NCBI GenBank assembly: GCA_960531495.1
Contig: OY482862.1
Span: 18,880,267 to 18,944,266 of the forward strand
Reading direction: 5' to 3'
Length of the DNA: 64,000 bases
Source of the DNA: Zeus faber
Taxonomy: Eukaryota > Chordata > Actinopteri > Zeiformes > Zeidae
The notes under the pieces: generated by a model
Told to the model about the DNA's origin: nothing
Databases searched by the model: none
What the model saw: only the letters and a program-made list of their open reading frames with translations
Position numbers and translations under genes: made by a program
Part shown: one piece after another, positions 2,722 to 61,747 of the stretch
How the letters are laid out: each line of letters begins with the position of its first letter
Position numbering within the stretch: position 1 is the stretch's first letter

Positions 2722-5700
2722 CTTCCCGTAGTCGGATGTGAGGACCAGCGATGCGTGGTCACACGTGGTCACCGTCGATGGGAGGAGCTGCTCTTTGTCT
2801 CTGAGCCAGACCCGGGCTCCCTGCAACACGCAAAAAAAAACAAAAAACAACAAAAAAAAAAAGCAGAACAACGTTTAGAAACACCTCGAAATCATCTTGG
2901 CCTTACGTTGATGCAAACCATGTTTGAGGAACACACAAACTATACGTTTTACATTATATTTGCCTTTTTTAAATTTAAATTGATCTTTTCCACATGTTAA
3001 AATACGTGCGGCAGTGCGATCAGACATAGTATTGCATGGTACACAAGCCTAAATGCCAATAAGTTTCCCCAAAAACATTATTGTATTAATATGATGTTGC
3101 CAAGAAGGTTGTGGGCAACAGCTACTATGAGACCAGAAGGAAGGGACGGTGACACAATAATGTATGAATGTGTGACTCAATGAATCACATAAAATACAAT
3201 TAAAAAATTTTTTTTTAATGTAACGCGGAACGTGAAAATAGTGTTGGAGACGGGGTGTTTGTGCAAAACCCCCTCGCATCATACACGCACAGCCAATCAG
3301 ACCGCAGACTCAGGATGCAGGGGCACTCTTCGCGGTTTACAGCCGGCGATCCAACGTGGAGCGCCGTTCTATAATTGTGCGAGGAAATGACCGTCCGTCT
3401 GAGCAATCAGCCTCAGATTCCTGTTTTTCGCCCCTGGTTACTGAGCCGCGAACAAACAAGGAGGGAAGTGCCGGTGACTCCGCGCGGCTACACAAACACA
3501 GGAGCCACACAGGACCCCACCTTATTTTTAGGGTTGATTTTTAGCATCCCTCTTCAACCAGGATGTTAATTAAAAGAGGTCTGGTTGAGTGAAATCAGGC
3601 AAAAAAAAAAAGCAGGAGGAGAACGAGGAATCATCCACTATTGACTGGATAAGTGAAATAAGTGCTCCCTTCACTAGTGGATGTGGCCATCCGGCTCTCT
3701 TTCATGAGGTGAACCACTCCGGCGGAACCCAAAGTTCGGATCTTTTCATCCGGCCTCACAGGGAGCGTACGAGGCCGGGGTCGGCGGCTTCTCCCTCTGG
3801 CGCGCCCGCGGTCCACCTGACGGCGCTCCCACACCCAGACTGCCAGGGGAGGTTTGATGAGAGGGCGGCAGCCGCGTCACTGTGAAGCGGTCAGGGAAAG
3901 GCGGAGCGCAGCCGCGAACAAAGGCTTGCGGGAAGAAAGAGTCGGGCCGAGAAAGAGCTTCAAAGGATGATCGTTCACTAGATCGTCCTCTTTGGAAGGA
4001 ATTTTAAGATGCCCGGGTCAGACAGTCATTTTCAAATAGCAACATAGTGGGCTTGACAGTATATTGATATAATAATGTGATATGAAACTAGATATTGTTT
4101 GGGATCACAGTACTGAATTTAGTCATATATTGTCAAATCATATACTGTACTTAATATAGTTAAATATTTGTTACGGCTGTATTTATCCACACTACTGATG
4201 ATGCATGAATGAGTGAATGTGTGATGATGTTTCTCAAATATTTCTTGTGTGAAAATATCTTATGAAAGCACCAATAGTTATATTGAAAAAAATGATCAAT
4301 ATCAATTGATTTGTGAGGAAAATATTGTCATGTCAGATCCCCCCCACACCCCGCCCAATATCGCCCAACCAAATATTTAGCCTCATGAATTACGAATAAA
4401 GACCTAACGATTAGACCGGTTCAAAAGAATCACAAGGAGGCTGCATCTGACATGTTGAACAGCGTTAATCATCAGAAATGCCGCCGACGAGGCAGCCCAA
4501 GAGCAGCAGAGAGAGTTGTGTGTCCTAAAAGGTGAAAGATCAATGGGCCTGTGTTCCACAGGGAAACCTCATACAAGGTCGCCACTCCCAGACATTAATC
4601 CTCATTAACTATTAACAACAGGCCGCCACGTGCACGCTCCGCAAGCTCTTTTCCTCCGGCGCACGGACGCCAAGTGAGGCTGGAAACAGAGATCAACGTG
4701 ACGGTGTGTAAGACCCGCTTTTCCATCCAACGGAATCCTATCCCAGTGTCACCGATTCAACAAAAGGCGAGACATTAAAAGAGGGGGAGAAAAAAAGGTC
4801 AACGCAGCGGAAGAACCTCCGTAAAAACCGTCCTTAGTGGAAAGCAAAGACCACTGTACTTCCCTTTCTTTCTGGTTGTATCAGCCCGTTCCCCAGACAA
4901 AGGGGTCACTGAGGCGGTCTAAAAACCAACATGCACTATCAAGGGTTGTGGTTTTTTGTTTTTTTTCCAGCTGGCTAATGGAGAGGAGCTAAATGTGGCT
5001 CTCCCAAACCACTGGGGACAGTGGTGAGTGGGGTGGAAGGGGGTCAGGGAGGTGGCGGAGGGGGCAAAGACGGGGAGAGGGGAAAGAGACGAAAGGATGC
5101 GAGCGCCCTCCTCAAGTCGTCACCTCGTATCCTCCGTCTGGAAACGGGGGGATGCCGTAGAAAGACGTAGGCTCTGTGACGGTGGGATTAATACCCCTCT
5201 GACTTGATCTATCAAATATCTGACCTGAGGCCACGCCGGGTAGCCGACTGTGTCCGCCTGGTACCGGGTCGCCGCGCACGGCCGCTCAGAGAAAATCTCG
5301 CTCACGTGAGCTCGCTGGGGCGGGGCCAGGAAAATTAATGCCATTTAGTCTATAGGTTTTTAAGGAGATCAGTCCCTGTTACATAACTGGAATTCGCAGC
5401 AGCTGAAATTTTGGTGGCACGTTGCTGATACTCTAATCTAAACTAATCTCGCGGGGAACCAGTCGGGGCAAGACGTTCGACCACGCAACTCCAAACGTCT
5501 ATTATGTGAGCGTCTTTTATGTGAATCATTATGCAAACCGTAAGCCTGGGGCTCACTGGATAGGATGGAGGGCAAGTCAAGAAAATGGACGAACACAGCA
5601 CGCCGCACTTGCGTCCTTGAAGTATTTTTACTGATGTTAGTTTTACGGCGCCATTTTTTATATTCAATGGCGATAAAAAAGGAAAAGGGCGAAGGATATG

Positions 5701-32006: not shown

Positions 32007-33655
32007 TCTCACACACACACACACACACACACCACAAAAAGTTAGTGATATTTGGCTTTAGGGTGAAATTTATGGAAAATGTAAAAAGTTCACACTATAG
32101 TGATATTATATCATGAAAGTAGGGCATTTAAGTAGAAGCATGCAATGGTGACTCCCTCATCTCAAACAATTTACTGAAACAAAAGTCAACAACAGTGGTG
32201 GGTTTACCACAGCAAAAAATGTCAATGTCTCAATAACTTGTCATGTGCCCTTCAGCAACAATTACAGCTTGACAACGACGTCTCATGCTGTTCACAAGTC
32301 GACTTATAGTCTGCTGAGGCACGGCCCCCCACTCTTCTTGAAGGCGGCCCTCAGGTCATTGAGGTTCTTGGGTACAGAGTTACGAGCCTCTACACGGCGA
32401 CTCAGCTGATCCCATAGGTTTTCTATGGTATTCGGGTCTGGAGAAAGTGCAGGTCACTCCATTTGAGGTGCCCCAGTCTCCAGCAGCCGTTCCCTAATGA
32501 TGCAACCTCGATGAGCTGGAGCATTGTCGTCCATTAAGATGAAACTAGGCCTGTGTTGTTCATGCAGGGGCACAATGACTGGATTAATGATGTTGTTCAG
32601 GTCGTATGGGCTTGTCACTGTACCATTCACAAAGTGTAGGGCAGTTCTGTATGGACTAGACACACCTGCCCACACTCTAACACCACCACCAGCAAAGGCT
32701 CGTCTGGTGACAACAGTGGCTGAGGCATAGCGCTCTCCTTGACGTCTCCAACATCGTTGGCGGCCATCATTTCTGCTCAATGTGAAATCGACTTTCATTA
32801 GTGAACAGCACTGAGGCCCATTGGTTCCTCGTCCAGCCTAAATGCTCCCTGGCCCGTGCAAGACAATGATGTCTGTGCCTGGTGGTGTGGTCGTCTAGCA
32901 CGCAGACCACGCTGATGTAAACGGTTTCGAATGGTCTGACGTGACACTTGGGTGCCTCTCACCTCCCTTAAATGTGCCTGGAGTTGAGTGGCATTCATCA
33001 TCCGGTTCCGCAGGGCACTGTTCACAATGCAGCGCTCATCAGCGTGGGATGTGGCCAAAGGACGTCCACTTCTATGCCTTTCTGTGACTCTTCCAGTCTC
33101 TCTGTATCTCTGTTGCAGCCCGCTGATGAAACTCTGTGACACTCTAAGCTCAGTGGCCAATTCCCTCTGAGATCATCCTGTTTGAAGCCTCGCTATGGCG
33201 AGGTCCTGTTGATCAGTTATTAGGTGTCGTCTTGGTCTCATGATGTCAAAATGTGAACAGCATGATGAAGAGGACTGTTTAAATACCAATTCTAATTGAA
33301 CCAGGAAATGTATTGGTGGATTCATGGATCAAACACCTGTTGTGAATTTTGCCGTTCAGCTCCTTGTTAGAGAACAGCAAGTTGTGCAAAAAGTACTGAA
33401 ACATTGAACAGTTGGACATGTGCATTCAAAGGTTTAGAGAAGATCAAATTAAGTTTGCCCGTAAAGGTTATAGTGCATTTTAGGTTCATCCTGAAATTTC
33501 ACCGTGTGTGTGTGTGTAATATTAATGAGCGATCACACCATTGTCTACACCCCCAGACACATTAACCTTACATTTAAATGGAAATGATATAGAATATCTT
33601 ATTAGAGATGTAATATAAGGCTTAAAGCTAAGTGATATTATGAAACTCGAAGGAT

Positions 33656-35134: not shown

Positions 35135-38100
35135 TCAGTTCTTTGCTGTGGCGGCGCTGGACTTGCGATGTGCCTGGACGCAGCGCGGAGAGCAGAAGGA
35201 ATAGTCCAGGTACTGAAACGGGATCTTTCCGAGCACAGACTCACCGCACTGCCAGCACCTCCTGGCAGGAAATATGACCATCCCAGGAAAAAAAACAAAA
35301 ACAAAAAAAAACAAAAAACAGTTTAGACATTCAGTAACAAGGTCACTGGAAAACTTGTTTTAGTCTCTTGAGCAGGTTGCGATGAAAGTTGTCTTACATG
35401 GTGTTTGAGAGGCCAACTCCTGTTGCAGCCACTTGCACTGCTAATCTCCTCTCGGCTGCTAAAGCCCTCTGTAAACAGAAAAACAAAATATCTATCCATC
35501 TATCTATCTATATTCCCCCCCTAAACATTCATTTATTTATTTATTTTGTTTATTTTTAAAGGTGGTTGAATAGCTGCTCCAATCAGCAGAGTAAATCACC
35601 TTTTCACGGTCAGTGAGCGAAGCAAACCTCTTCTTTTCTTCCGCTTCCAGCTCTTGTTTTTGCTTTTCCTCCTTCTGCTCCTTCTCTCGCATTTTCTTTG
35701 AGGCCTTCTGAGCTTTCTTCTTCTCACTCTTTTTGGATTCGATCTCTGCAGTCAGCGGACCAGGAACCTTGCGCGGCGGAGCAAGCGGTATGACTTTCAA
35801 ACACACTGTGCGTTGGGACCTTTGCCACAAATGGTTGAGAAAAAGCGACCTACCTGTGCTTTACTGTAGTCGTACTTATCAGGATTCTCACCCATGTATT
35901 TCCGAAAGACATTTCTCGTGTCTTTTTCAGGAGCAACATTGTATGGAGTACGGCCTTTTTTATCCCTGTAGTAGAGGGGAATCCCACATCGTTACGTTGA
36001 ATTACACATTGTATTTTTCCTTTCTAAACTTGTTGCATTTCAACTAGGGCAGGTCAATATTAGGAATCTTTCAGCACCACCCTCATTAAATAAGGACATC
36101 CTCATATCGTGCCACACAATTCTGCAGTCTGAATGAATCATAAGAAGATATGAGCTTTTGTGAAAAGCTGCTTGAAATGTCACCTTTAACAAAATAAAAT
36201 TCTTCAAAATGGAAGCAAGTTGGTGCGACGATGTAAAAGAGTTGGCTTCTTTAAAAGGGGATTTTGAATATACTCGCACATATCTTGATAATATGAATCG
36301 TGTAAAATGATGGATAATAAAAGCCATAACCGTCTAGCCGTTCCATAAATTTAATTGGAATAACGGAAGTTCTGATGATACCTGCAGGCTGGGTCTGCTC
36401 CCGCATCCATCAACAGCTTGACTACCGACTTCTGTCCAGCTGCAGAGGCCACATGCAGCAGCGTGAACCCAGACAAGTCTATGGCTTTGTTGACGAGCGT
36501 CAGGGGACTGGTGCACCCTGCTGGCCACTCCTGGAGTGGAGCGATGTTCCCAGGCTGTTCTGAACCCTCCGCCGTCTCCTTGGAAAGATGGAGGAGGCCG
36601 CAAAGGGAATCTACGTTGCCTACCTTACAGGCTGTGAAGAGCGCGTCCCTCAGGCCAAACTCCCACGACTCATCCGCATCCTTTTCTTCTTTGTCTTCTT
36701 CTGGTTGGAAGCAAATCTAATTGTTGATTTCCCTCGTGTCGTGTGAACTCATAACAAGTCCCCGATATCAGTACGGTAGTTCTACACTATAAATCCAAAC
36801 CAATGAAAGTGCAGAAACAGGTAAAAGCAGAAAAAACATCTGACCTTCAGGTTGCTGCTTCTTATTCTGTGCTTTCCTCTTCGCCTTATTCTTTCTTTGT
36901 TTCTCTTCAGTGGTGTCCTTGGTAAGTTCAGCCGGTGACACTTCCTCTTCCTCCACAACCTGCTGCTCTGCTACTTCTGTTGTGTTCACTTCTGGCAAGA
37001 AGAAAATATTTTTTAGTGCTAAAATTATTTATATATACACACACTACTCACAAAAAGTTAGGGATATTTGGCTTTCGGGTGAAATTTATGGAAAATGTAA
37101 AAAGTTCATGCTGCAGTGATATTATATCATGAAGTAGGGCATTTAAGTAGAAGCATGCAATGGTGATTTCCTAATCTCAAACAATTTATTGAAACAAAAG
37201 CCAACAACAGTGGTGGGTACAACACAACAAAATTGTCAATGTCTCAATAACTTGTCATGTGCCCTTGAGCATCAATTACAGCTTGACAACCACGTCTCAT
37301 GCTGTTCACAAGTCGACTTATAGTCTGCTGAGGCATGGCCCCCCACTCTTCTTGAAGGGCGGCCCTCAGGTCATTGAGGTTCTTGGGTACAGAGTTACGA
37401 GCCTCTACACGGCCACTCAGCAGATCCCATAGGTTTTCCATGGGATTCAGGTCTGAGAGAAAGTGCAGGCCCACTCCATTTGAGGTGCCCCAGTCTCCAG
37501 CAGCCGTTCCCTAATGATGCAACCTCGATGAGCTGGAGCATTGTCGTCCATGAAGATGAAACTAGGCCTGTGTTGTTCATGCAGGGTCACAATGACTGGA
37601 TTAATGATGTTGTTCAGGTCGTATGGGCTTGTCACTGTACCATTCATAAAGTGAGGGCAGTTCTGTATTGACTAGACACACCTGCCCACACTAACACCAC
37701 CACCAGCAAAGGCTCGTCTGGTGACAACAGTGGCTGAGGCATAGCGCTCTCCTTGACGTCTCCAACATCGTATATCGGCCATCATTTCTGCTCAATGTGA
37801 AATCGACTTTCATCAGAGAACAGCACTAAGGGCCATTGGTCCCTCGTCCAGCGTAAATGCTCCCTGGCTCCGTGCAAGACAATGATGTCTGTGCCTGGTG
37901 GTAGTGGTCAGGTACCCTTGCAGGTCGTCTAGCACGCAGACCACGCTGATGTAAACGGTTTCGAATGGTCTGACGTGACACTTGGGTGCCTCTCACCTCC
38001 CTTAAATGTGCCTGGAGTTGAGTGGCATTCATCATCCTGTTCCGCAGGGCACTGTTCACAATGAAGCGCTCATCAGCGTGGGATGTGGCCAAAGGACGTC

Positions 38101-40671
38101 CACTTCCATGCCTTTCTGTGACTCTTCCAGTCTCTCTGTTGCAGCCTGCTGATGACACTCTGTGACACTCTAAGCTCAGTGGCCAATTACCTCTGAGATC
38201 ATCCTGTTTGAAGCCTCGCAATGGCGAGGTACTGTTGATCAGTTATTAGGTGTCGTCTTGGTCTCATGATGTCAAAATGGGAACAGCATGATGAAGAGGA
38301 CTGTTTAAATACCAATTCTAATTGAACCAGGAAATGTATTGGTCGATTCATGGATCAAACACCTGTTGTGAATTNNNNNNNNNNNNNNNNNNNNNNNNNN
38401 NNNNNNNNNNNNNNNNNNNNNNNNNNNNNNNNNNNNNNNNNNNNNNNNNNNNNNNNNNNNNNNNNNNNNNNNNNNNNNNNNNNNNNNNNNNNNNNNNNNN
38501 NNNNNNNNNNNNNNNNNNNNNNNNNNNNNNNNNNNNNNNNNNNNNNNNNNNNNNNNNNNNNNNNNNNNNNNNNNGAAGATTGTGGAGAGTTCTGTTTCTT
38601 TGTCTGTGTAACACATTTTTCACAGGCAGTTGTTGACCAAGTGATGTGACAGACAACTATCATTTCAAGTATAGTTTGATTCTCACCATAAACAAGAACA
38701 GTCGAGAGCAACTCATGTACTCTCTGCACCTCTCGAAAGGTCGCTCTGCGTGTAGCAAAAGGCAGTGTACGGATCCTGGCATCCTTTCTGTCCAGCGGGG
38801 CTCCCCGACCCCCAAAAAAGAGGGTTTTATTGTAGCTAGGGGCGCGAAGAAATTATCAGCGAGGCCTCCTTCAGGTGTTCGACCCATATGTCCAGAAGAT
38901 CCTGGACGTCCTGCAGAGGATCAGAAATCATTCATTTTGTTAAGTGAACAAAAACCTTGAGGGCACTGACAGATTCTGATAAGGCAATGAGTCTTGACAG
39001 GGGTAGAAAGTTTGACCTTGCCTTGACTAGCGCTGCCTCATTGTATCGCCTCAGTGCGGCCCCTGCTGATTTGGGCGCGTGGCTGCGGTTCTGAGCGTCT
39101 CTGAGGCCTTGAGCCGTGCCCCGCTTTGCTCGCACAGTGTAGCGGTGAAAAGTCTTGTGCTGAATCACCTCTTTTCTGGAATATAAACACACACCCGTTG
39201 GGCAAAAATGTCTTCCCATTGGGACCGCTGTTTTGTTTAATTATTTAGAGAATAAAATAATAAGGCTTTGTTTTTGTTTTTTTTATTTTGTGTATATGTA
39301 TAAATTTTGTGTGAGAAATAAATGTTGCCTGGAGCCCTTTTTGAGAAGAGATTCTTTATTTTTCAAATGCAGTCATAGGAGTATGATGCAGTTTGACATC
39401 GTATACATTTGACATTGTATAAGCTATTCTGAAAAAGTCAAGCAGTTTAGAATTTTTGAAAGGGCTCCGCCTTGCAAACAAAAAAAACAGTTAGGTTTAG
39501 TCTTCTCTCCTCATAGTATTGTATGTGAAAAAAAATATATAAAAGCATTACAGCCAGTGGCAGTAAAGAGAAAAACGCAACACTTGGGTGTAAAATATAT
39601 AAAAACCTGAGTTTTCAAATTTAAAAAGTAGACACTGACCCCTTGAAGATGGCACCAGCGAAGTGTCCTCCACCCGTCATGAGAATGACCCATACTGTCT
39701 TGTCACTGATGTTCTTTAGGGACGCCATTACATCAGCCTCACCATCTAACTTAATTACACAGAATTACCAAACAATAGTTAGGGAAAGTTATTAGTTATT
39801 CAACTAGGATTCATGTTGTAACTGCCTTCGTCTGTTAAAACTCACTTTGGCCTGGAGCACACAGCGGTGGACCCCGAGATACTGTCCTTCTGCGTTCTGA
39901 AAAACCACCTTGCTGGAAATCCGGTGAGGATACGCATCAGCTTCAGTGGAAGACTCTTTACAGGGCACATCGCTGCATTTCCCCGCCCAGTCACCATCGG
40001 AATCTTGCTCCTCCGAGTCAGAATCTGAGCCAGAGATACTTGACAGGTCTCCTGTGAAGACATAGGGGGGGGGGATCCATTATTATAATTATTGCTAACT
40101 ACATTTTGGCCTGGATGCATGATGTTTAAGACGACTCTAGAGCCCTCACCGGTCCCAGTTTTTCTCTCAAATTCTTCCACGGTGACTTGTGGCAGTCCTG
40201 TGATCCTCTGTCTCAGGTTAAACCGATGCCAGTCGAGCTTGTAGTGCTCCATCTGTGGAAAAAAAGTTATCGGTGCACAGCACTACCCGCCCCCCTTTAA
40301 GGAGGAGAGCTCTTGACAATCAGATCGCTTACTACTGTATTTACCTGTTCCTCACGGCTGTTAAAGGGGCAGCGGCAGGTTGAGCAGACCATCCTGTCTG
40401 GCACATCTCTGGGGAGAGTGCTCTCGTTTTGTTTGTCCTCCACCCACCGTTGCAAACCTCCTGTTCACACGTCGCACAAGGTCAGGTTTTCACGTGTTCG
40501 CCAACACATAGTGCGGAGAGTTTCTAAACAGATGACTCAGAGTGACTCACCGTCTGTTGGTGGCTCAACGGACACGGGCTGCTGTTCACCAGGAGTTACT
40601 TCTCTGAGCCCAATCACAGCCTTCTCCTGGAGACAGCAGTCGAACACCGAGAGGTTTCTGCAGGCGGTCAT
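35135..40671 (-). CDS. ankzf1: Ankyrin repeat and zinc finger protein 1 (Vms1 family); frameshift in exon 7, exon 8 cut by gap
   Basis: ANKZF1 is the peptidyl-tRNA hydrolase that releases nascent chains from stalled 60S ribosomes. Exons: 40551-40671, 40345-40460, 40150-40252, 39846-40051, 39640-39749, 39022-39175, 38687-38910, 38603 into the gap, 36845-36991, 36382-36700, 35854-35965, 35600-35767, 35398-35468, 35135-35261. Visible in order: C2H2-like finger (CSTCRCPF...HYKLDWH), VLRF1 domain with the catalytic GTAQ motif (Gln about 241), ankyrin repeat ([20 protein letters not shown]), coiled coil, VCP-binding motif ([15 protein letters not shown]) and a C-terminal CxxC...CxxxC finger. Intron 6 is GC-AG (AAG|gcaagg). 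Exon 7 has one extra base near 38851-38856, creating a TAG at 38836-38838; without it the frame matches the family. This could be an assembly error or a true lesion. Confidence 0.92.
37038..38374 (-). mobile_element. Tc1/mariner transposon, copy 2, in ankzf1 intron 8 (right end lost in gap)
   Basis: Same family and orientation as 31986-33516. It starts after TA at 37036-37037 with CACACACTACTCACAAAAAG, then GGGTGAAATTTATGG. The minus-strand transposase starts near 38270 with [20 protein letters not shown] and has the same in-frame TGA as copy 1, plus its own extra stop and frameshifts. [13 protein letters not shown] marks the catalytic part. The sequence runs into the N gap about 160 bp before the expected right terminus. 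Confidence 0.88.
38375..38574. other. Assembly gap (200 N)
   Basis: Exactly 200 Ns, probably a placeholder length. It begins inside the right end of Tc1 copy 2 and ends inside ankzf1 exon 8, so both are incomplete. Confidence 1.
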
Positions 40672-48079: not shown

Positions 48080-49855
48080 ATGTATTCTGCCATGATCATG
48101 GTGGGCGTCCTGTTGGGAATGGTGCCCCCGGCGTACGCCCTTCCCCTCAAGGTCAGTGCTGTCCTGAAGCGATCTGCCTTCTACCTGCCTCGTGCTGTCG
48201 GCCTCTTGTCTCGCTTCGTCGTGGATTGTGACTGAGGCGGATTGTCGTGCATTACAGAATTCAACCGGAGTCCACGAGGGAACAGTGCGAACAAAAAGAA
48301 AACACTCAGGTGGGTTCGTTAAAAGAGATGGGATTCCTTTCCAAGGCTCTTTATTCATGGAACGGGAAAAAAAATGTGCATGTTTCAGTTAAAAGAATTG
48401 GGTGGGTTTTGTTTTTACCGATATTTCAAAACGTCACGTGTTCCTTCTCCCTCGTTTTCCGTCTGTTTAGATGAGTTCATGGAGCATGATGAAATGAATG
48501 CCATGGATGTGATCCTACAAGCCAACAGCAGTAAGTCACCCATGTTCCTGAACTGTGTTTTTAACTGATGTTGATCGTTGCGTATACCTCTGACCAGATT
48601 CAAATACATTAAAATATTTCTTACCAGGGCTTCGGGCTCCCAGGGGACTAACGCTGAAGGAAGGGGATATCGCCACCTCGTATATTAGGAGCGCCATCAA
48701 CTGCCCTGGCAACGCCTGTTTGTGGCCCAAATCAGTGGATGGATTTGTTTACGTGCCTTTCATAATGTCTCCACTGTATGGTATGTACCCACAAATGTGC
48801 TTCCCTGTTTTTCTTTTGTTTCCAATATATTCTGGAGCTCAGATTGGTATTACATAATGACTTGTACTGTCTCAAGACTTTCCATAAGGACTTAATGATG
48901 TAACTATCTTTTTTTATTTTAGATAATATGGAGAGAATCACAATAGAAACCGGCATGCAGGATATCGCCGCCGAGACGTGCATTAAATTTGTTCCACGCA
49001 CCCACGAAGCCAACTTCCTCGATATCCAGCCGAGATTTGGGTAAAAAAACGATCGCGTCACATGTGTTTCTTTGGTGCATGAGAAGCCTTTTTATGGTTC
49101 TTCTTTGTTTTTTTTTGTTTTTTTATATGTGGTTTCTATGGTTACACGGTGATATTGCGCGAAATTCTATGTTTCTTTATGTCGACGCGGGGCTGCCGTT
49201 TTTGACCCGCAGCTGCTGGTCCTATCTGGGGCAGACCGGGGGCAGCCAGGTCCTCTCCCTGCAGTCTCCTGGATGCATCTGGTCCGGCGTGGCGTCGCAT
49301 GAGCTCATGCACGCGCTGGGCTTCGTGCACGAGCAGTCTCGCTCGGACCGGGACCGCTATGTCACCATCGTGTGGAAAAACATCACGCCAGGTCAGGATA
49401 CATGACTTTCCCCGTCCCACTGCTTGGAGAAGGCCTATTCTGAGTATTTGGATAAACACTTAGGGGGATAAAGTATGAACATTTAAAACTTCAACTTTAA
49501 CTTTGTTTTTTTGTGTGTGTGGACTGGACAGACCGCATGAATAACTTCAGGAAGCAGGCGACAAACAATCTGAACACCGCGTACGACTACAGCTCTGTCA
49601 TGCACTACGGAAGGTGAGCCCGATTTCGGAGGGGGCGAAATGTTATTTTCTGTGGGGTTTTCTTTTTCATTTCTTCTAAGATGTCTCCGCGAACGAATCT
49701 ATTCTGACCGTTTTTGGAAAAACAGGTATGCCTTCTCTGAAGATGGTGGGCCCACCATCATCCCCAGGCCAGACCCGTACATTCCCATCGGGCAGCGAGA
49801 CGGACCCAGTATGATGGATCTCCATAAAATTAACCTCCTGTACAACTGTGCGTAA
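48080..49855 (+). CDS. Six-cysteine astacin metalloprotease (hatching-enzyme type), gene 2
   Basis: Paralogue of the preceding gene. Exons: 48080-48151, 48258-48309, 48471-48530, 48628-48780, 48923-49040, 49213-49391, 49532-49613, 49726-49855; 281 aa. It has a signal peptide (MYSAMIMVGVLLGMVPPAYA), a basic RTKRK stretch in the propeptide, an aspartate switch KEGD, and an N-terminal cysteine pair (NCPGNAC) plus four more cysteines (TCIKF, GCWSYLG, PGCIWS, YNCA). The zinc motif HELMHALGFVHE is at residues 181-192 and the Met-turn is canonical, SVMHYG, with Tyr237. Unlike gene 1, the last exon encodes both the segment after the Met-turn and the C-terminus. All catalytic residues are present, so an active secreted protease is expected, by analogy in hatching gland or epithelium. 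Confidence 0.92.
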
Positions 49856-52699: not shown

Positions 52700-53163
52700 C
52701 GGCGAGCGAGGGAGGACTTCCGGTGACGCGTGGACGAGTCAGGGGAGTCGGTTCGCCCCCGAGTCCTGAATGGAGTCCTCACGGGAATCGCTTCGTTCGG
52801 TCACAATTGCTCGAGCGGGAGAAGTCTCTCGACAAATAATATTTAATTGAAGTCTGACTCACAAACGTAATATATCGGCCACATTCGACACGAATTGCGC
52901 CAAATGCCCCGGTCTTTAGGGTATTCGCTGCCCGGTAAAGTCCGCCCACTCTTCGGCCGGAGCCACTCCCGATTCGTTCGCTACGAGCGAATCGTTTGCG
53001 ACTATTTCCCGACGTCACTATCGCGCACACACAGTCCCAGATACACACGCACGCAGTGACGGGCCGCAGCGCGTTTAAAAAAAAAAAAAGAGAGAGAGAG
53101 AGAGAGGAAAAAAAAAAAAAAAGCTCCTAAATCCACATTATTCTTGTTAATTACAACAAGAAA
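52700..53163 (+). promoter_or_regulatory. CpG-rich promoter and 5' UTR of tra2b
   Basis: CpG-dense sequence up to the ATG, with a (GA)n and poly-A tract at 53077-53123 just upstream of the start codon. No TATA box is seen, as expected for a housekeeping splicing factor. Confidence 0.45.
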
Positions 53164-56100
53164 ATGAGCGATAACGACAAAGATTACGCCGAGCGGGTAA
53201 GTATGCGTCCTGCACGGGGCGATGCGCACATGCGATAACACATTTCGCGTCGATCGAAACGTTAGTGTCCGTGACACTGCCGTTAGCGAACCGCAGATTC
53301 TGACGCAGAATGTCTACACGTTGTTATAAAACGCTTGTGCCCCCCCGCCACCCCCCGGTTGTTTTCATGTATTATTCTTCCCCAAAAGCACCAAAGGGTT
53401 TCCATAGCGGTGGCGGTTACTAACCCGTTCTAGGCCCCGCGGCCCTGGCCGAGGACACCGCGTAGCCGCCATTGTGCGTGTATGGCTAATATCTCATGCT
53501 AACATCTCATGCTAACCAGTGGATTATCGCACCCAAGCGATCGACCAGTATTACATTCTATACCCAACAAGCAGCCGACAAATCTGCCGTTTATTTCACC
53601 CCGGATCCTCCTAAATACCTCATTCCGATGGGAAATCGGAGGCCCCGCACAGAACCACGTGTTTGCAGATAGGTTTTTTTTGTTTGTTTGTTTGTTTGTT
53701 TTACGACTTAACATTTTATTTTTGATTATTTCATTGATTAGCCACAGGCACGACGTCCCTTGTTATGAAACGTTCGGTGCGAATTGAAACGATTAGATTC
53801 CCTTTCGTTTGAGTTTCACGGTTGCCGCCATGCACAGCAGCCGGTGCCAGTCACCCCCTCACTTAAATGGCGTTGGGGGCATTCGCTTCAGTTTCGAGTT
53901 GAAATGAAAGCCCAAAGAACTGAGCATCGTAATTATCTAAATAATAATAATAATAATAATAATTGGACTTCTCCCATTGCTATTTGTGCCCGTGTTATTG
54001 TATACATCTTTATTCGTTCCCTACAGGAAAATACCATCTGTATTTGTACCCTAGCAGTCATATTGCCACTTAGCCCCTGCCATAGCTTTTGAATTTATCT
54101 TGTGTGTCGAATCACATTTTGTGTATATATATTTATTTATTTATTATCTTTTTTTTTTTTGCTTCCCTTTTTTTAGATTTAAGGCTAATTGTCTGTACAG
54201 CAGTGCACCAGCCCATATCTAAATACATTCCTTATAAATAGATTATTGTTCAGATTCTGATTCTGGTTTTAGTTTGAATTTATATTGTGCTATCTGTGTC
54301 TTTTATTATATGATATAACATACTATACAATTTTTACATGTTGAATTCTAATGCATGTTATGAGATTACCTTAACACATTTAAAGTTGAATGAGGCTGAA
54401 GTTCTGATTGTAGTCATATATATTCTTCATCCTTTCTTTTTCATTAAGGTAAATTTTGGAAGAAGAGAAATGCAGAAGAAGTCTCATGTCAAGTTGTTTT
54501 TGAATAATATGAAGCTCAGATGTGTGACCCTGGTTTTGTCAATGCATGCTAAAACATGAGGCGGAAAGAAGTATGGGCAGTGTGTGAGATGGGGGAAGTA
54601 AGAAGAAGTAAGACATTGGAAGAAAGAAGAATGTTATGAAGTAATGAAGTTAAGGAAGTTATCGGGGATAAGGCCACAGCGCTAAGTAATTTCTAGTCTG
54701 TTTGTCAAATGCGTGCATGTTTGTTTTTTTTTTCACAAAACACTATCACATGTTTGAAATTTCCATCAGCCTGAGTTTACCGCTCAGACTCCTGTCTGCA
54801 TAGGCTAATTAAACAATTTTACACATTCTCTGTATTCTTGAAATGGACATAAAGCTACAACTCAAAATTATTTTAACAAACATTCCACACAAGCTCTAGT
54901 CAATAGGAAATATCTTGTCCTTGACGTCCTTCGCCAATAATAACGAGCTCTGTCGGTGTGTGTGGTTCATTCAGGAGTCGCGCTCTGCGTCCAGGAGCGT
55001 GAGCCCGCGGGGTTCAGGGAAGTCTGCCAGCCGCTCCCCGGCCCATTCCCCCGCCCGCTCAAAAGAGGGGTCCCGACACTCCCGCTCCAAATCCCGGTCT
55101 CGTTCCAGGTCCAAGTCTGGGTGAGCACGTCGGACGTGGTCGTTTCTGCTCTGGCGGCCGCAATTTGAGTGACGCGTGTTGTCGAGAATGTCGGCCTGTG
55201 GACAACATAATGGAAGAGCGCTCCAGGAATTGGATTCATGGTGAAGTGTATTTATTTATTTATTTTTCCCTCTTCTCTTTCTATAGCTCCCACTCCCACC
55301 GGGGCTCACGCAGACACTACAGTCGCTCTCGCTCTCGCTCTCGCTCCAACCGTCGCCGCTCCCGCAGCAGATCCTACAGCGGGGACCGCCGGCGTCGCAG
55401 CCACAGCCGCTCCCCCATGTCCAACCGCCGCAGACACATTGGAAACCGGGTAATTTCACTGGACATTTTGGCGCCTTATAGGTTTTCACAAGTGGTCGTT
55501 CTGTGACGCTCTAGCTGTGTACGTACTTGGAATGCTTTTTATAGAAATGGTGAATCTCTGGTGTCTGTGTTTAAAATAAAACTAAGGATTTTACAGTAAT
55601 GGTGTGCGCCCTGTAATTTTGTATTTGTTAAGGAATTTGGTGTATGGCCTCACAATAATGATTTGCCTGATGGTATGGAACTGTATTGAGGTCAAACGTA
55701 TTGATAGTGATTTTTTTTTTTTTTAAGCAATATCCAGCCCAATCCAACATAAACTGCAGCTCCTCTGACTCCTGCAGACAGAATTAAAATAGCAAACAGA
55801 CTGGAAATGACTTAGCACTGTGACCGTATCCCTGATAACTCCCTTAACTTCAGAATGACCATTCTTAAATTACAGGCTAACCCAGACCCTAACTGTTGCT
55901 TGGGAGTTTTTGGCCTCAGCTTGTACACGACAGAGAGAGACCTGAGAGAAGTGTTTTCCAAGTACGGGCCTCTGGCCGATGTGTGCATCGTCTACGATCA
56001 GCAGTCCAGGCGCTCCAGGGGCTTTTCTTTTGTCTACTTTGAGGCCAGAGAAGACGCCAAAGAGGTAAATAACCTTTTAGCTGGGAGCCAGACATCCCGC

Positions 56101-57357
56101 CAGACCTGAATCTAGTGGAAGTGTGTGCCCTTAGTTGTGCAGTGTGTCAAACCTGGGGAGGTGAACGGCGTCTTGTGATTGTTGTGACAGGCAAAGGAAC
56201 GAGCCAATGGTATGGAGCTGGACGGTCGAAGAATCAGGGTGGACTTCTCCATCACGAAAAGACCTCACACCCCCACGCCTGGAATCTACATGGGCCGGCC
56301 CACATAGTAAGTCCCCCATAGTCTGTTGTTAGCAGCTGTGCGTTCATTTCAAATTGACCCTTACTTCCTTTCCCTACTTTTCCACTTTTGCGTCACGAAA
56401 GTTCCCATCAACATGTTAAACATACAGGCATGCATGATTTTGTGTATCAATGGGAACCATACATGGTAAGCGATCCGGGCGGGGCTGTGAATACCATCAA
56501 GCCTATCTGGTATTGAGTTCCAGTGTACTGGGCATGTTTAAAGTTTTAATTTCTAAGATGGCGTAAGCCTTTCTTGTGTGTATGTGTTTGAACATATTAC
56601 CCACGTCAAATTGGCACCAAAAGTATTTTTTAGCATGTAAATTACAAAAGAAATTGTTTTCTAAACTATTATGTACTCAAAATTTGAACTGCACCCTCAA
56701 TCCTGTGTTTTATAGCGGTGGAGGCGGCGGCGGCGGAGGTGGTGGAAGCAGCGGTGGAGGCGGCGGCGGTAGCGGGGGAGGTGGACCCAGCGGGCCACGT
56801 CGCTACTCGCGCGACTACGACCGTGGGTACGACCGCGGGTACGACAGGGGTGGCTATGATCGCTATGATGACAGGGATTACTACAACCGATCATCATACA
56901 GGTGGGCGCCTTTTTCAATGATCACTTCTCTATTGTAATCCATAGGAGCCATAATATGCCTCAACTTATGGTTAGGTTTATTTGGACTGCTTACATAGGC
57001 TTTGTCCGGGGCTTTTATTTTTTTTTTTAAATGTATTTATTTATCTATTTTTTAACAGTTGAATGGTACCGATCCGACTCATTACTTTAAAATGACTGTT
57101 TTAGGATTTAAAATAAGTATTTCCATTGGAAAAACTCAGTAGGGTCCATGATTTAAAACCAATGTCGTTGTTTCAGAAGGAGATCGCCTTCCCCGTACTA
57201 CAGAGGAGGAGCGTACCGCTCACGGTCCCGGTCACGCTCCTATTCTCCACGTGAGTCCCTCAGCTGCAGTTGAAATAATTTAATGTCAACAGATTGTTGC
57301 AGTTAAATTTTCAATTCTTCATTGTTAAATAATTGTCTTTTCGCAGGTCGTTATTGA
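53164..57357 (+). CDS. tra2b: Transformer-2 beta splicing factor, complete, 8 coding exons
   Basis: A nuclear SR-like protein that binds GAA-rich exonic enhancers and promotes exon inclusion. Exons: 53164-53196, 54975-55120, 55287-55449, 55876-56064, 56191-56306, 56716-56901, 57177-57250, 57347-57357; 305 aa with consistent phases. The start [18 protein letters not shown] matches TRA2B. RS domain 1 is followed by the RRM at about 115-198 ([23 protein letters not shown]1 RGFSFVYF) and by [20 protein letters not shown] and [12 protein letters not shown], which carries the Phe (not Tyr) of TRA2B. A Gly-rich linker with serine spacers leads to [13 protein letters not shown] repeats and RS domain 2, ending [14 protein letters not shown]. 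The Gly-rich run before the DRGY repeats makes it slightly longer than the mammalian protein. Followed by igf2bp2, as in human. Confidence 0.95.
54449..54685 (+). other. tra2b: Candidate tra2b poison exon (autoregulatory, purine-rich)
   Basis: It lies in intron 1 between [11 protein letters not shown] and ESRSASR. A pyrimidine-rich tract and AG (54447-54448) precede a GAA-dense segment: GGAAGAAGAGAAATGCAGAA at 54458-54477 and GAAGTAAGAAGAAGTAAGAC at 54595-54614. If spliced after exon 1 in frame, it reads 36 codons and stops at TGA 54557-54559. Mammalian TRA2B has a highly conserved non-coding exon 2 in this position, whose GAA enhancers bind Tra2-beta to limit its own level. The 3' boundary is a guess (GT at 54686). 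Confidence 0.65.
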
Positions 57358-60210
57358 ACATCATTTTCACATGTCAAGCCCTTCACCTTCGACGGAAAAG
57401 TTTCCCCAAAACAGTCAATTTGAAAAATAATTTGTTTAAATGTTCTTGGCAGGGTTCTTGTTTTTTTTTTGTTTTTTTTTTTGTTTCTTTTATCATCAGA
57501 TGTACACGGCCTGTAACTTTAACAATATATTGAGGCTGGCTGTTTTATTGACTGTAAAATGGATTACATTAGCTGACAATTGTTTTTGTTTTTAAATGTA
57601 TGGACCACACCAACCATACTTGTTTTGTACACAAATTTCTCTTGAGTGTGACTATGGATTTCTATTCCTTGTATGTGATTAAAGGAAATGCTAGTTCTTT
57701 TCCCACTTCTTGTCTCAGCATCTTTACTCCTTATCTATCTAGTGAGCCAACTAGATTAAAACAATTAATTAATTTTATCTCTTATTCCCAACAATTGGCT
57801 TTAACTACTGTTAAAAATACAACCCATCAAAAGCAAAATTTTATTTAAAAATATCCCCTTGAAAATGACAAATTGAATCCCGCAATATATTCTCCTGCAT
57901 AACTCTTTATTGCAATTGGCATCTTGGAGCAGAACCCTCATTTCCACCGAGGCGTTGGGTATAAACCCCTGAAGGACTGCATCCATCGTGACAGATCCAT
58001 GCTGCCTTGACATGTGACCTGCAGCCTCAGCTGCTGGTGGGGCTGCAGGACCACGTCTCCACCTACCGGACCCTAATGTTAGTACCCAAATAGTACAGAT
58101 AGGCTGCTGCTTCTTTAGGCATTTTCATGTTGACAAACAACGCCATGAAAGCGGAAAAATATTCATCAAGCTCAGTGCCTGTTTATTTGTTTTTGGTGAT
58201 GCTGATGTAGGACAATAACGTTTTTTTTTTTTATTACCAAGGTAAACATGACACACCCTGGACCTTAACAAAACTCACAACCTTCTAGAAGCCGTTTCCC
58301 CTCAGTAGCTCCACCCCCATGGTCTTGGGCTGCTTTGTCAATTAAGTTACTTGTTTTTAATTGTTCTACTGAACGCCATGAATGTTAATGTTCATGTGTG
58401 TGCTTTGACAATTAATTTGCACTTTCTGTATATTGATTAAAATAACATTGAAGTGAAATACACCATCACTCTACATTACTGTATGTTTTTACAGTGAACA
58501 ACTGCAGGAATTGATGCAAATAAATCCAGAGTTTGAATTGAGTTTCCCTGCTGAATGTTATCAATTGATGCAGCGATGCATCTTTCTGAGTTATCAAGAT
58601 TTTTATTTTAAAAAATTACAATGGAATAGCACATGGGTAACTTATAAAACTTGTTTTACCACTGTAAAACGACAGTAAATCTACACAAACGCAACCGGAT
58701 GCTGCTGCTTGAGTCAGTCAAATGATTTCCAGATAATCCGTTCTCCCAGTGTGTAGTCAGGTAAACATGCAAGTCGTTTAGCAGGAAGATCCTACGCTGA
58801 GTAAACCTCTCAACAGCAAAGTACCAGAGGAGCCTGTTTGGATGCAGGTCCGTGGCTGCATGGGATCATGGGCCTTCACTGCTGTCATTGTCGGGTCCCA
58901 GCAGCTAGAGGGTGGCAGTCCTGTTCCAGTGCATGATGAGCAGGTCACATGGAGATCCAACTGAAGGCTCCTCCCCTATAGGGTAGACTACACATCCATG
59001 CACAGCCACTATACTGTGCACAGGCCTGCCATGTCTCCCTGCCATTCCAAGAAACGTCCCATATGAGAAGGGTTTCCTCTCTTAAATATTTCACTCCTCA
59101 AATAATCAGTGACGCCGGCAACATCTGTACGGGCCAAGCAAGTATCAAGTGTCCGCCACATATCGAAGAAAATATCTATACAATTTATTCTAATGCATTT
59201 CCACAGTTACACAGGTGTGTAACTTCAGTTTCGAGAAATTCGGTATTCATACGTGTCCAGATCAGGGACTGGATCTATCAAAGTGCTGATCTGGGATTGA
59301 TCATCTATAATTTATTAGGTCCATATATTTTTAAATGACTATGACACCACTGACACTTTCTTTTTGGAAATTGTAACCAGGATCTGCATGAGCACTCACC
59401 TGTCAAAATAACCCCCCCCCCCCAAAAAAGACACTTTATGCTGTGTGATGTGTTACACCAGGGCACTGGAAAATGACAAGTACTTTTAATACTTTGAATA
59501 CATGTCAGAGAAAGCACTGATATACTCTAACTTAAGTACCAATGTCAGTGTGCCACTTTCACTTTCACTATAGAATAATTTGGCGTCAGAGTATTTGTAC
59601 TTTTACTTTTGAGTGAAATGCCTGAGCACTCAGTCCACCGCTGCTTATTAATCATATCGTGATATTACCATATTGCTCTGGGTCTGGAGGGGGGAGATGG
59701 GGAGGCAGGACCGGTGACATCCAGCCCGCAGAGCCAAGGCTGCGCTGCCCTGAGGATTTGATGAAATAACCCCCTGCCTCCCGGAGCCCCCGCAGCCCTG
59801 GCCGGACCCGCACCACGACACGCCGTGACACTTCCACACCGCGATGCACTTGTCTTTTCCACGACCGAACGCGGAGTGCCAGGGCCCACACGCACCTCCA
59901 AACACATTTACTGATATTTTTTAAGGCAGATTTTATTTAGAGGCGGTGCTTGCTGGCTCCAGAGGAGCGTCGCAACGACACTTTTTTTTCAATCCCAGTT
60001 AAAAGAGTTTGACCAGGGGCAGAGTTGGTGCTGGGGGGGTCGCCTAGCATTATATATATTTGTTAGGGGGGGTAATTGCTGCTTTTTTTTTTTCTCCCCA
60101 GCATTTTATTTTTCTATTTTTATTTTTTGTTTGTTGTTATTTTTTTTTTATTTTTTATTTTTTTTTTTACTTCCCTGAGTAATCGCCTCCACCACCACCA
60201 CCAAAAAAAC

Positions 60211-60241
<31 letters not shown>

Positions 60242-60269
60242 CACCATATCGAGATTTCCCCTTTAGAAC
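57358..60269. other. tra2b 3' UTR and spacer before igf2bp2
   Basis: Starts with the tra2b 3' UTR (ATTAAA near 57678-57683). It then holds unremarkable AT-rich sequence, a repeat fragment at 59505-59642, and T-rich then A-rich tracts (60076-60237) directly upstream of the igf2bp2 start. No gene is recognised. Confidence 0.6.
59505..59642. repeat. Fragment of the CAGTGGTGGA-type fish repeat, inverted
   Basis: TAACTTAAGTACCAATGTCA, then GTATTTGTACTTTTACTTTT and the end CAGTCCACCGCTG, is the reverse complement of the repeat family seen at 42304. Confidence 0.6.
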
Positions 60270-61747
60270 ATGAACAAACTATATGTCGGGAATCTGAGTC
60301 CTTCGGTCACCGTGGAGGACTTGAAGCAGCTCTTCGGGGAGAGGAAGCTTCCAGTGGCCGACCAGGTGCTGCTCAAATCCGGCTATGCCTTTGTGGACTT
60401 CCCGGACCAGAACTGGGCCATAAAGGCTATAGAGACCCTCTCCGGTGAGTATGGACGCGGGGCTGCGTGGATGATGCTGCGGCGACGACCGCGATCGGAC
60501 GTGTCGGAACTAGCGATTAAAGTGCGAATCGCGGGGGGAGAAAGGATCCCGGCGATGGTCGGCGCCCGCTGCAGGGTGCAGGTTCCCTTCAGCCCCGGGG
60601 AAGGGGGACGGTGCGATCGGTGCCAGAGTTTCGGTAAAAGGGATGAGGCTCCGACAAAACTGCGTGAAATTACACCTCGCGGGGCGAACCGGGGTCGCGG
60701 TTTTATAGTGCGCGAAACGCACGAAAAGGCGAACGTATTTTCGTGCGGGGCGTCCGAGCGCACTCCCGCTCGCCCCCGTCGGAATGCACGGGACGGGGAT
60801 GGGTCTGAGGCGTAATTATTTTTCACTTATTTTTTATCTTGATTTTATTGAAAAGAACGCAGCGACGCGAGCGGGACCAACTTGTCGGAGTCGTGTTCCT
60901 GTGCCGTCTGGGCATGTTTTTACGAGGTGTCTTGGCCGTGGGTGCCGGGGGTCCGGAGGAAAGGGCTAATAAACAGGTAGCTGGGGGGGAACGAGGTGAG
61001 ACTCCCGTTCCGCGCTGCGCCAGGGCCACTTCGCCGCACATGATCCACAGCGGAGAGAGAGAAAGAGAGAGAGAGAGAGAGGGGGAGAGAGAGAGAGGGA
61101 GAGAGAGAGAGAGAGAGAGAGGGGGGAAGCGAGGCGCGCCGCGGAAACCCTGCCTCTCGACCCCCGGACCCCCGCGTGCGGCTCCGGACGGCGAGGGGAA
61201 ACACGTCCCGCCGTCCGCGGCGCCCCGTTACCCCGTTTCTTTATTTTCCGAGGCGGGCGGCAACCCCCCTCCTCCTCCCCGCCGCGTCGGATCTTGCGTT
61301 CCTCGCTGAATAAAACGCGCTCGTTTCCAGTGAGGGCTGTGGGAGTGGAAAGCATGGCTGCCCCGTTCCCCCCTCATAGTAGGGAGCTTCTTATCACAGG
61401 AGGATTTCCCTGAAATATGACTCACTGGCACCGGGGGATATTTATGATAAAGCCGCACTCCTTTGTCCTTTATGAGGAAATACACACGGTGTGCGGTTGC
61501 TTGTTGAACGCGAGCCACCCACTTGTGAAGTGATTGGAAGCGTGTGGGTATAGGCCTTTCAGTCCTGTCAGTGATACTATATGATGTTGTGATATTATAC
61601 CGCCGTGATGCCACGCTGATCGCCCTTCAGCCTTATCTCGCTGTAATGCTGGAGCTGCTGTTACAATATCAATTTCGCCCCTACAGGTAAAGCTGAATTA
61701 CACGGAAAGGTGATAGAGGTAGACTACTCTGTTCCCAAAAAACTAAG
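60270..61747 (+). CDS. igf2bp2: IGF2 mRNA-binding protein 2, first two coding exons (partial)
   Basis: A cytoplasmic RNA-binding protein (two RRMs, four KH domains) that stabilises and localises mRNAs. Exon 1 (60270-60444) encodes [20 protein letters not shown] through [20 protein letters not shown] to AIETLSG. Exon 2 (61687-61747, 61 bp) encodes [23 protein letters not shown]2 (LYVGNL) and RNP1 (GYAFVDF) of RRM1 are intact. Residues such as [14 protein letters not shown] and [13 protein letters not shown] match IGF2BP2 rather than IGF2BP1 or 3. The open frame past 60444 (to 60815) is intronic read-through. A GC-rich block at 60440-61310 suggests a CpG island running into intron 1. The rest lies beyond 64000. 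Confidence 0.93.
61055..61120. repeat. (GA)n-rich tract in igf2bp2 intron 1
   Basis: An almost pure purine GAGA/GGGA tract in the CpG-rich first intron, which could bind GAGA-type factors. Confidence 0.85.

Follow-up and report, generated by a model that had tools for sequence, protein, structure and literature searches.

The first intron of tra2b in the fish Zeus faber contains a GAA-rich, stop-containing segment (54449-54685) that is very probably a poison exon, orthologous to exon 2 of mammalian TRA2B. This orthology is favored because intron position, phase, premature stops, an array of motifs for the Tra2 protein, and an acceptor similar to one in the paralogous gene tra2a all fit. An earlier sequence-only reading had put the segment forward as a candidate counterpart of TRA2B exon 2, and on these same features the candidacy appears sound. 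The window, in whose numbering positions are given, is the whole stretch of 64,000 nucleotides that was analyzed, corresponding to positions 18880267-18944266 of contig OY482862.1 (C18) in a genome of 803 Mb in 153 contigs. A slash within a splice-site sequence marks the cut.

The tra2b Gene and Its Neighborhood

Joining and translation of the exons gave a coding sequence of 305 codons distributed over eight coding exons, with the C-terminal end SRSYSPRRY of a Tra2 protein. Intron 1 extends from 53197 to 54974 and is in phase 0 at both ends; the flanking junction positions proposed earlier, 53196 and 54975, were correct.

53164-53196, 54975-55120, 55287-55449, 55876-56064, 56191-56306, 56716-56901, 57177-57250, and 57347 onward, forward strand: coding exons of tra2b
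53164-53196, forward strand: coding exon 1, with ATG at 53164, 11 codons, and donor CGG/GTAAGT at 53196/7 in phase 0 (sequence and translation)
54975-55120, forward strand: exon 2 of the coding set (ESRSASRS...), starting in phase 0 (sequence and full coding sequence)

A PDB search with the RNA recognition motif (RRM) of tra2b returned Tra2-beta chains as its best four matches, the label "Arginine/serine-rich splicing factor 10" being one that we take to denote Tra2-beta. No TRA2A chain was present among the 60 PDB matches listed, and the RRM matches therefore do not discriminate between the two paralogs. An open reading frame at 60267-60443, 2.9 kb past the tra2b stop, matched IGF2BP2 (2cqh, E 4.5e-30) better than IGF2BP3 (best E 1.6e-18), and human TRA2B and IGF2BP2 are neighbors as well. 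The gene was named tra2b rather than tra2a because igf2bp2 adjoins it and because of features of the protein. An RRM search of the genome gave 19 rows, four of which fell at two loci, tra2b and C1:25501577-25502118, with 80-97% identity, while the other 15 showed 26-49%. The gene at C1:25501577-25502118 is taken to be tra2a, likewise from features of its protein. The RRM exons of tra2a are followed on their own strand, after ~12 kb, by an igf2bp-like match at C1:25513942, and those of tra2b, after ~4 kb, by igf2bp2; a third igf2bp-like locus is found on C11. The tra2b and tra2a loci look like duplicated segments because an igf2bp-like gene is near each, and the gene set from the genome search, two tra2 genes alongside igf2bp-like matches at three loci, fits the expectation for a vertebrate.

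Elsewhere in the window, minus-strand open reading frames at 32454-33172 and 37826-38242 resemble, by eye, pieces of Tc1-type transposase, there is a stretch of N at about 38.4-38.6 kb, and the open reading frame at 48947-49405 (HELMHALGFVHEQSRSDRD) resembles by eye an astacin-type metalloprotease.

A GAA-Rich Segment With Premature Stops in Intron 1

When the frame of exon 1 is continued from 54449, 36 sense codons are followed by TGA at 54557-54559, in agreement with the in-frame stop claimed in the sequence-only reading, and codons 51 and 79 are in-frame stops in addition to codon 37.

54449-54685, forward strand: candidate poison exon of tra2b, 237 nt, with in-frame stops and a high density of GAA and AGAA; putative 3' end
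54557-54559, forward strand: first premature stop, TGA, 126 nt upstream of the putative exon end (translation)
54459-54657, forward strand: GAA and AGAA array containing 19 GAA, putative Tra2 binding sites (exonic splicing enhancer)
54591-54595, forward strand: GGGGG run (sequence), possible counterpart of 485-GGGG-488 of human exon 2, homology assumed (human numbering as reported in PMC6003563)

The 237 bases contain 19 GAA, 10 AGAA, 14 GAAG, and 7 AGAAG motifs, and AGAA-rich sequence is the reported target of Tra2-beta (PMC3240583). Every 237-base stretch of the 64 kb was counted in the same way (on the forward strand those not overlapping the segment, and on the minus strand), and the maxima elsewhere were 11 forward and 16 minus-strand for GAA, 5 and 8 for GAAG, and 3 and 6 for AGAAG. 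The GAA-rich character noted at the outset was thus borne out, GAA and GAAG being denser here than anywhere else in the window on either strand. For AGAA, the maximum elsewhere on the forward strand was 5, and one minus-strand cluster near 36.9 kb contained 10, a tie with the candidate exon. Across the nine exon stretches listed, 10 of 13 AGAA motifs belonged to this segment.

Of 100 dinucleotide shuffles of the RNA spanning 54420-54720, 99 were predicted to form a more stable fold than the native sequence (z +1.79). Folding prediction revealed no special structure in this region, and, given the unstable predicted fold, the Tra2 sites may be accessible. A search of Rfam over 52900-57700 yielded nothing above gathering score; the sole hit, on the minus strand at 55434-55473, was to a bacterial sRNA (E 0.59) and fell below its gathering score. 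Viral and prokaryote contigs, scanned for exact 24-base matches, gave none, and a literature text search for any two of TRA2B and five 12-base pieces of the exon also found no match.

The Acceptor and Its Counterpart in tra2a

The acceptor-like AG reported earlier in intron 1 was located at 54447-54448 in the sequence TTCTTTTTCATTAAG/G, which places the start of the candidate exon at 54449.

54419-54448, forward strand: polypyrimidine tract and acceptor TTCTTTTTCATTAAG, reciprocal best match with the acceptor of the tra2a candidate exon

Exon 1 of tra2a reads MSDVEGGNYEGR and the next exon reads ESRSPSKSDHG, with a phase-0 intron between them. Within that intron (in L021), the acceptor TTCTTTTCTCATTAAG/GT precedes a GAA-rich segment in which a stop follows 21 in-frame codons and which, if its end is at 4064, contains 33 GAA and 17 AGAA in 346 bases. 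The tra2a and tra2b candidate exons occupy the same intron in the same phase, and both are GAA-rich and stop-containing.

The two poison-exon acceptors are one inserted base apart over 18 and score 34 over 30 bases as a pair. The runner-up scored 25 in tra2a intron 1, which has 97 AG sites, and 26 in tra2b intron 1, which has 90; three constitutive acceptor pairs of the paralogs, compared in register, scored 18, 9, and 12. The similarity of the two goes beyond that of ordinary acceptors. None of 297 other acceptor-like sites reached 34 against the tra2a acceptor and 1/297 did so against that of tra2b. This tying site is a true T-rich acceptor of tra2a, at L021:7078 in front of the RRM, and it reduced slightly the odds assigned to common descent of the two exons, from fairly likely to a little better than even, and by a hair those of the poison-exon reading itself, which stayed high. 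In a stricter local test of the acceptor flank, 12 and 25 of 2000 shuffles reached the observed score, a moderate result; under relaxed scoring neither flank was significant (209 and 323, and 210 and 314, of 2000 shuffles). The acceptor pattern TTCTTTTN{0,1}TCATTAAGGT had 2 matches in the 803-Mb genome, at the tra2b and tra2a candidate exons, and its backward control had 1; since this pattern and the donor pattern described below were written from both sequences, two matches are built in and the information lies in the absence of a third. By matrix, the acceptor scores 6.76 in tra2b and only 3.18 in tra2a. Stronger acceptor-like sites occur in tra2b intron 1 at 54027 (9.78) and 54177 (10.51), with no GAA-rich stretch directly behind them. 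The putative acceptor ending at 54448 is supported by its match in the paralog.

Similarity between the exon bodies ends at composition. Their alignment was no better than that of shuffles, 291 and 488 of 1000 reaching the score, and homology of the bodies was dropped. When tra2b 53000-57400 was compared with the tra2a locus by BLASTN, coding exons were detected; looser settings added the acceptor (E 0.25) but no match in the exon body. A global test of exon plus flanks gave 0/1000 for both kinds of shuffle, with windows that were pre-aligned on the acceptors and hence biased toward homology.

The Donor and Alternative Readings

The end of the segment at 54685, as first proposed, coincides with a possible donor, TAA/GTAATT, which is weak, and the earlier remark that the precise donor is not obvious still applies: sites at 54598 and 54608 outscore 54686 by matrix. 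Donors were scored by matrix and by pairing with the U1 end.

54686-54711, forward strand: putative donor TAA/GTAATT and a downstream motif common with tra2a, TAAGTAA-N9-TGTWTGT-CAAATG, whose leading TAA forms the last exon bases
54598-54609, forward strand: two alternative donors GAA/GTAAGA, with cuts after 54597 or 54607, matrix score 3.06 each

The donor-side pattern TAAGTAAN{8,10}TGTWTGTN{0,2}CAAATG likewise had 2 genome matches, at the tra2b and tra2a exons, with 1 for the backward control. In a comparison of the leading 35 intron bases, the poison-exon donors scored 23 and three constitutive donor pairs 11, 13, and 18. Among the 112 GT sites of tra2a intron 1 two others reached the donor pair score, and among the 109 of tra2b intron 1 none did. 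By score alone the donor similarity was not significant, since 67 of the 7639 GT sites in the window reached the pair score and 419 and 628 of 2000 shuffles did so in the local test. In tra2a, an alternative donor TAG/GT(T)AAG(T) was noticed at L021:4060, beside TAA/GTAAAA, with U1 pairing of -7.9 kcal/mol if one base bulges.

Placement of the tra2b donor at 54685/6 is probable and is favored because TAA/GTAA is shared with tra2a, the GAA repeats extend to 54657, and the layout resembles that of the human exon (313-588), whose GGGG element at nt 485-488 is reported 100 nt before the exon end (PMC6003563); the GGGGG run at 54591-54595 lies 90 nt before 54685. A shorter poison exon of 149 nt (to 54597) or 159 nt (to 54607) behind the same acceptor, which would leave much of the GAA array intronic, seems unlikely on balance but has the stronger donors: GAA/GTAAGA scores 3.06 against -0.01 for 54686, with U1 pairing of -5.8 (54598) and -4.5 (54608) against -4.2 kcal/mol. 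The 54686 site is in fact weaker, by matrix and by U1 pairing, than all seven tra2b coding-exon donors (2.56 to 6.63; -5.6 to -13.5 kcal/mol), a point against the best reading. Set against the shorter exon are the repeats and the human layout just described, from which a GGGGG run only 2 nt from the exon end would depart, and the tra2a segment, whose listed GT sites include no GAA/GTAAG donor.

If the exon is included, its main product might be a nuclear-retained RNA or a detained intron rather than a cytoplasmic mRNA that decays. In HCT116 cells, the human exon-2 form is reported to be nuclear and to show no increase under cycloheximide or upon UPF1 knock-down (PMC4848834), a point against a simple decay model, although these are human cancer cells, and a stop 126 nt before the putative exon end with seven junctions after it is the usual layout for decay; this outcome is judged rather improbable, and protein output would drop either way. 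It is very unlikely that the GAA array acts as a Tra2-binding element within the intron without ever being spliced as an exon: the donor is weak and the acceptor, at 6.76, falls below the sites at 54027 and 54177, which also counts against the poison-exon reading, yet the acceptor is the feature best shared with tra2a and would be needless in an unspliced element. A purine-rich stretch arising by chance could account for exon bodies that cannot be aligned between the paralogs, a further point against the favored reading, but is scarcely credible: no other part of the 64 kb, on the forward or the minus strand, reaches this density of GAA and GAAG, and the paralog has a GAA-rich segment in a similar position, behind an acceptor that matches.

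Proposed Feedback Circuit and Closest Known Systems

Under the poison-exon reading, scarcity of Tra2 would lead to skipping of the weak splice sites, joining of exon 1 to 54975, and production of the full protein. Abundant Tra2 would bind the GAA and AGAA array and cause the poison exon to be included, whereupon translation would end after 47 codons and the included mRNA would undergo nonsense-mediated decay or nuclear retention, so that Tra2 falls. The combination of weak splice sites and a dense enhancer to which the gene's own product would bind is consistent with an exon that is used only at high Tra2. We infer inclusion, Tra2 dependence, and decay for the Zeus faber exon, and the mechanism is supported by mammalian precedent (PMC3240583, PMC4848834, PMC8060298, PMC3929626). 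Mouse Tra2b is reported to be autoregulated via cassette exon 2, and mouse Tra2a also to have a Tra2b-dependent exon 2 (PMC3929626). TRA2A and TRA2B reportedly cross-regulate each other through poison exons (PMC12077678), and the mouse Tra2b poison exon is described as required for male fertility and meiosis (PMC11791180).

The closest known system is human TRA2B exon 2, or ultraconserved element uc.138 (TRA2-beta-4 isoform), which is reported to comprise 276 nt with multiple premature stops (PMC4848834, PMC8060298). The two exons are alike in gene, in premature stops, in a length divisible by 3 (237 in Zeus faber with an end at 54685), and in a G-run ~90-100 nt before the exon end, and autoregulation is known in mammals; the Zeus faber candidate differs in being 39 nt shorter with that end. 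The mouse Tra2a poison exon, of 306 nt, is likewise an AGAA-rich cassette exon 2 with premature stops; its activation by Tra2 proteins and its conservation in vertebrates, including the fish tetraodon, stickleback, and medaka, have been reported (PMC3240583). It belongs to the paralog, however, and the body of the Zeus faber tra2a candidate cannot be aligned with the tra2b exon beyond composition. A third parallel is the poison exon reported to be shared by SRSF4 and SRSF6, in which homologous unproductive splicing was retained in two paralogs after duplication (PMC4379411), in another gene family and another intron.

Possible Origin of the Switch and Its Significance

The comparison of the two loci suggests that the tra2a/tra2b poison exon is possibly older than the split of the genes. 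On this reading, which we hold to be slightly better than an even bet, self-limitation of Tra2 by a poison exon would have arisen once, before the early-vertebrate duplication that gave rise to tra2a and tra2b, and afterwards only the edges and the GAA composition would have been kept, leaving the body free to change. The edges retained would be an almost invariant acceptor, TTCTTTT(C)TCATTAAG/GT, and perhaps a TAA/GTAA donor. No statement of shared descent for these exons was found in passages of open-licence papers, and one may well be in print.

If a single origin is true, selection between the paralogs would have acted on weak, matched splice sites and on motif count, not on sequence, and comparison of tra2a and tra2b within one genome suggests that the splice-site edges are the longest-kept part. 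The suggested inheritance of the switch from one ancestor contrasts with most human SR genes, for which independent origins are reported (PMC4379411). The switch itself is already well described in mammals; what is added here is the similarity of the exon edges in both paralogs, which makes an origin before the duplication testable.
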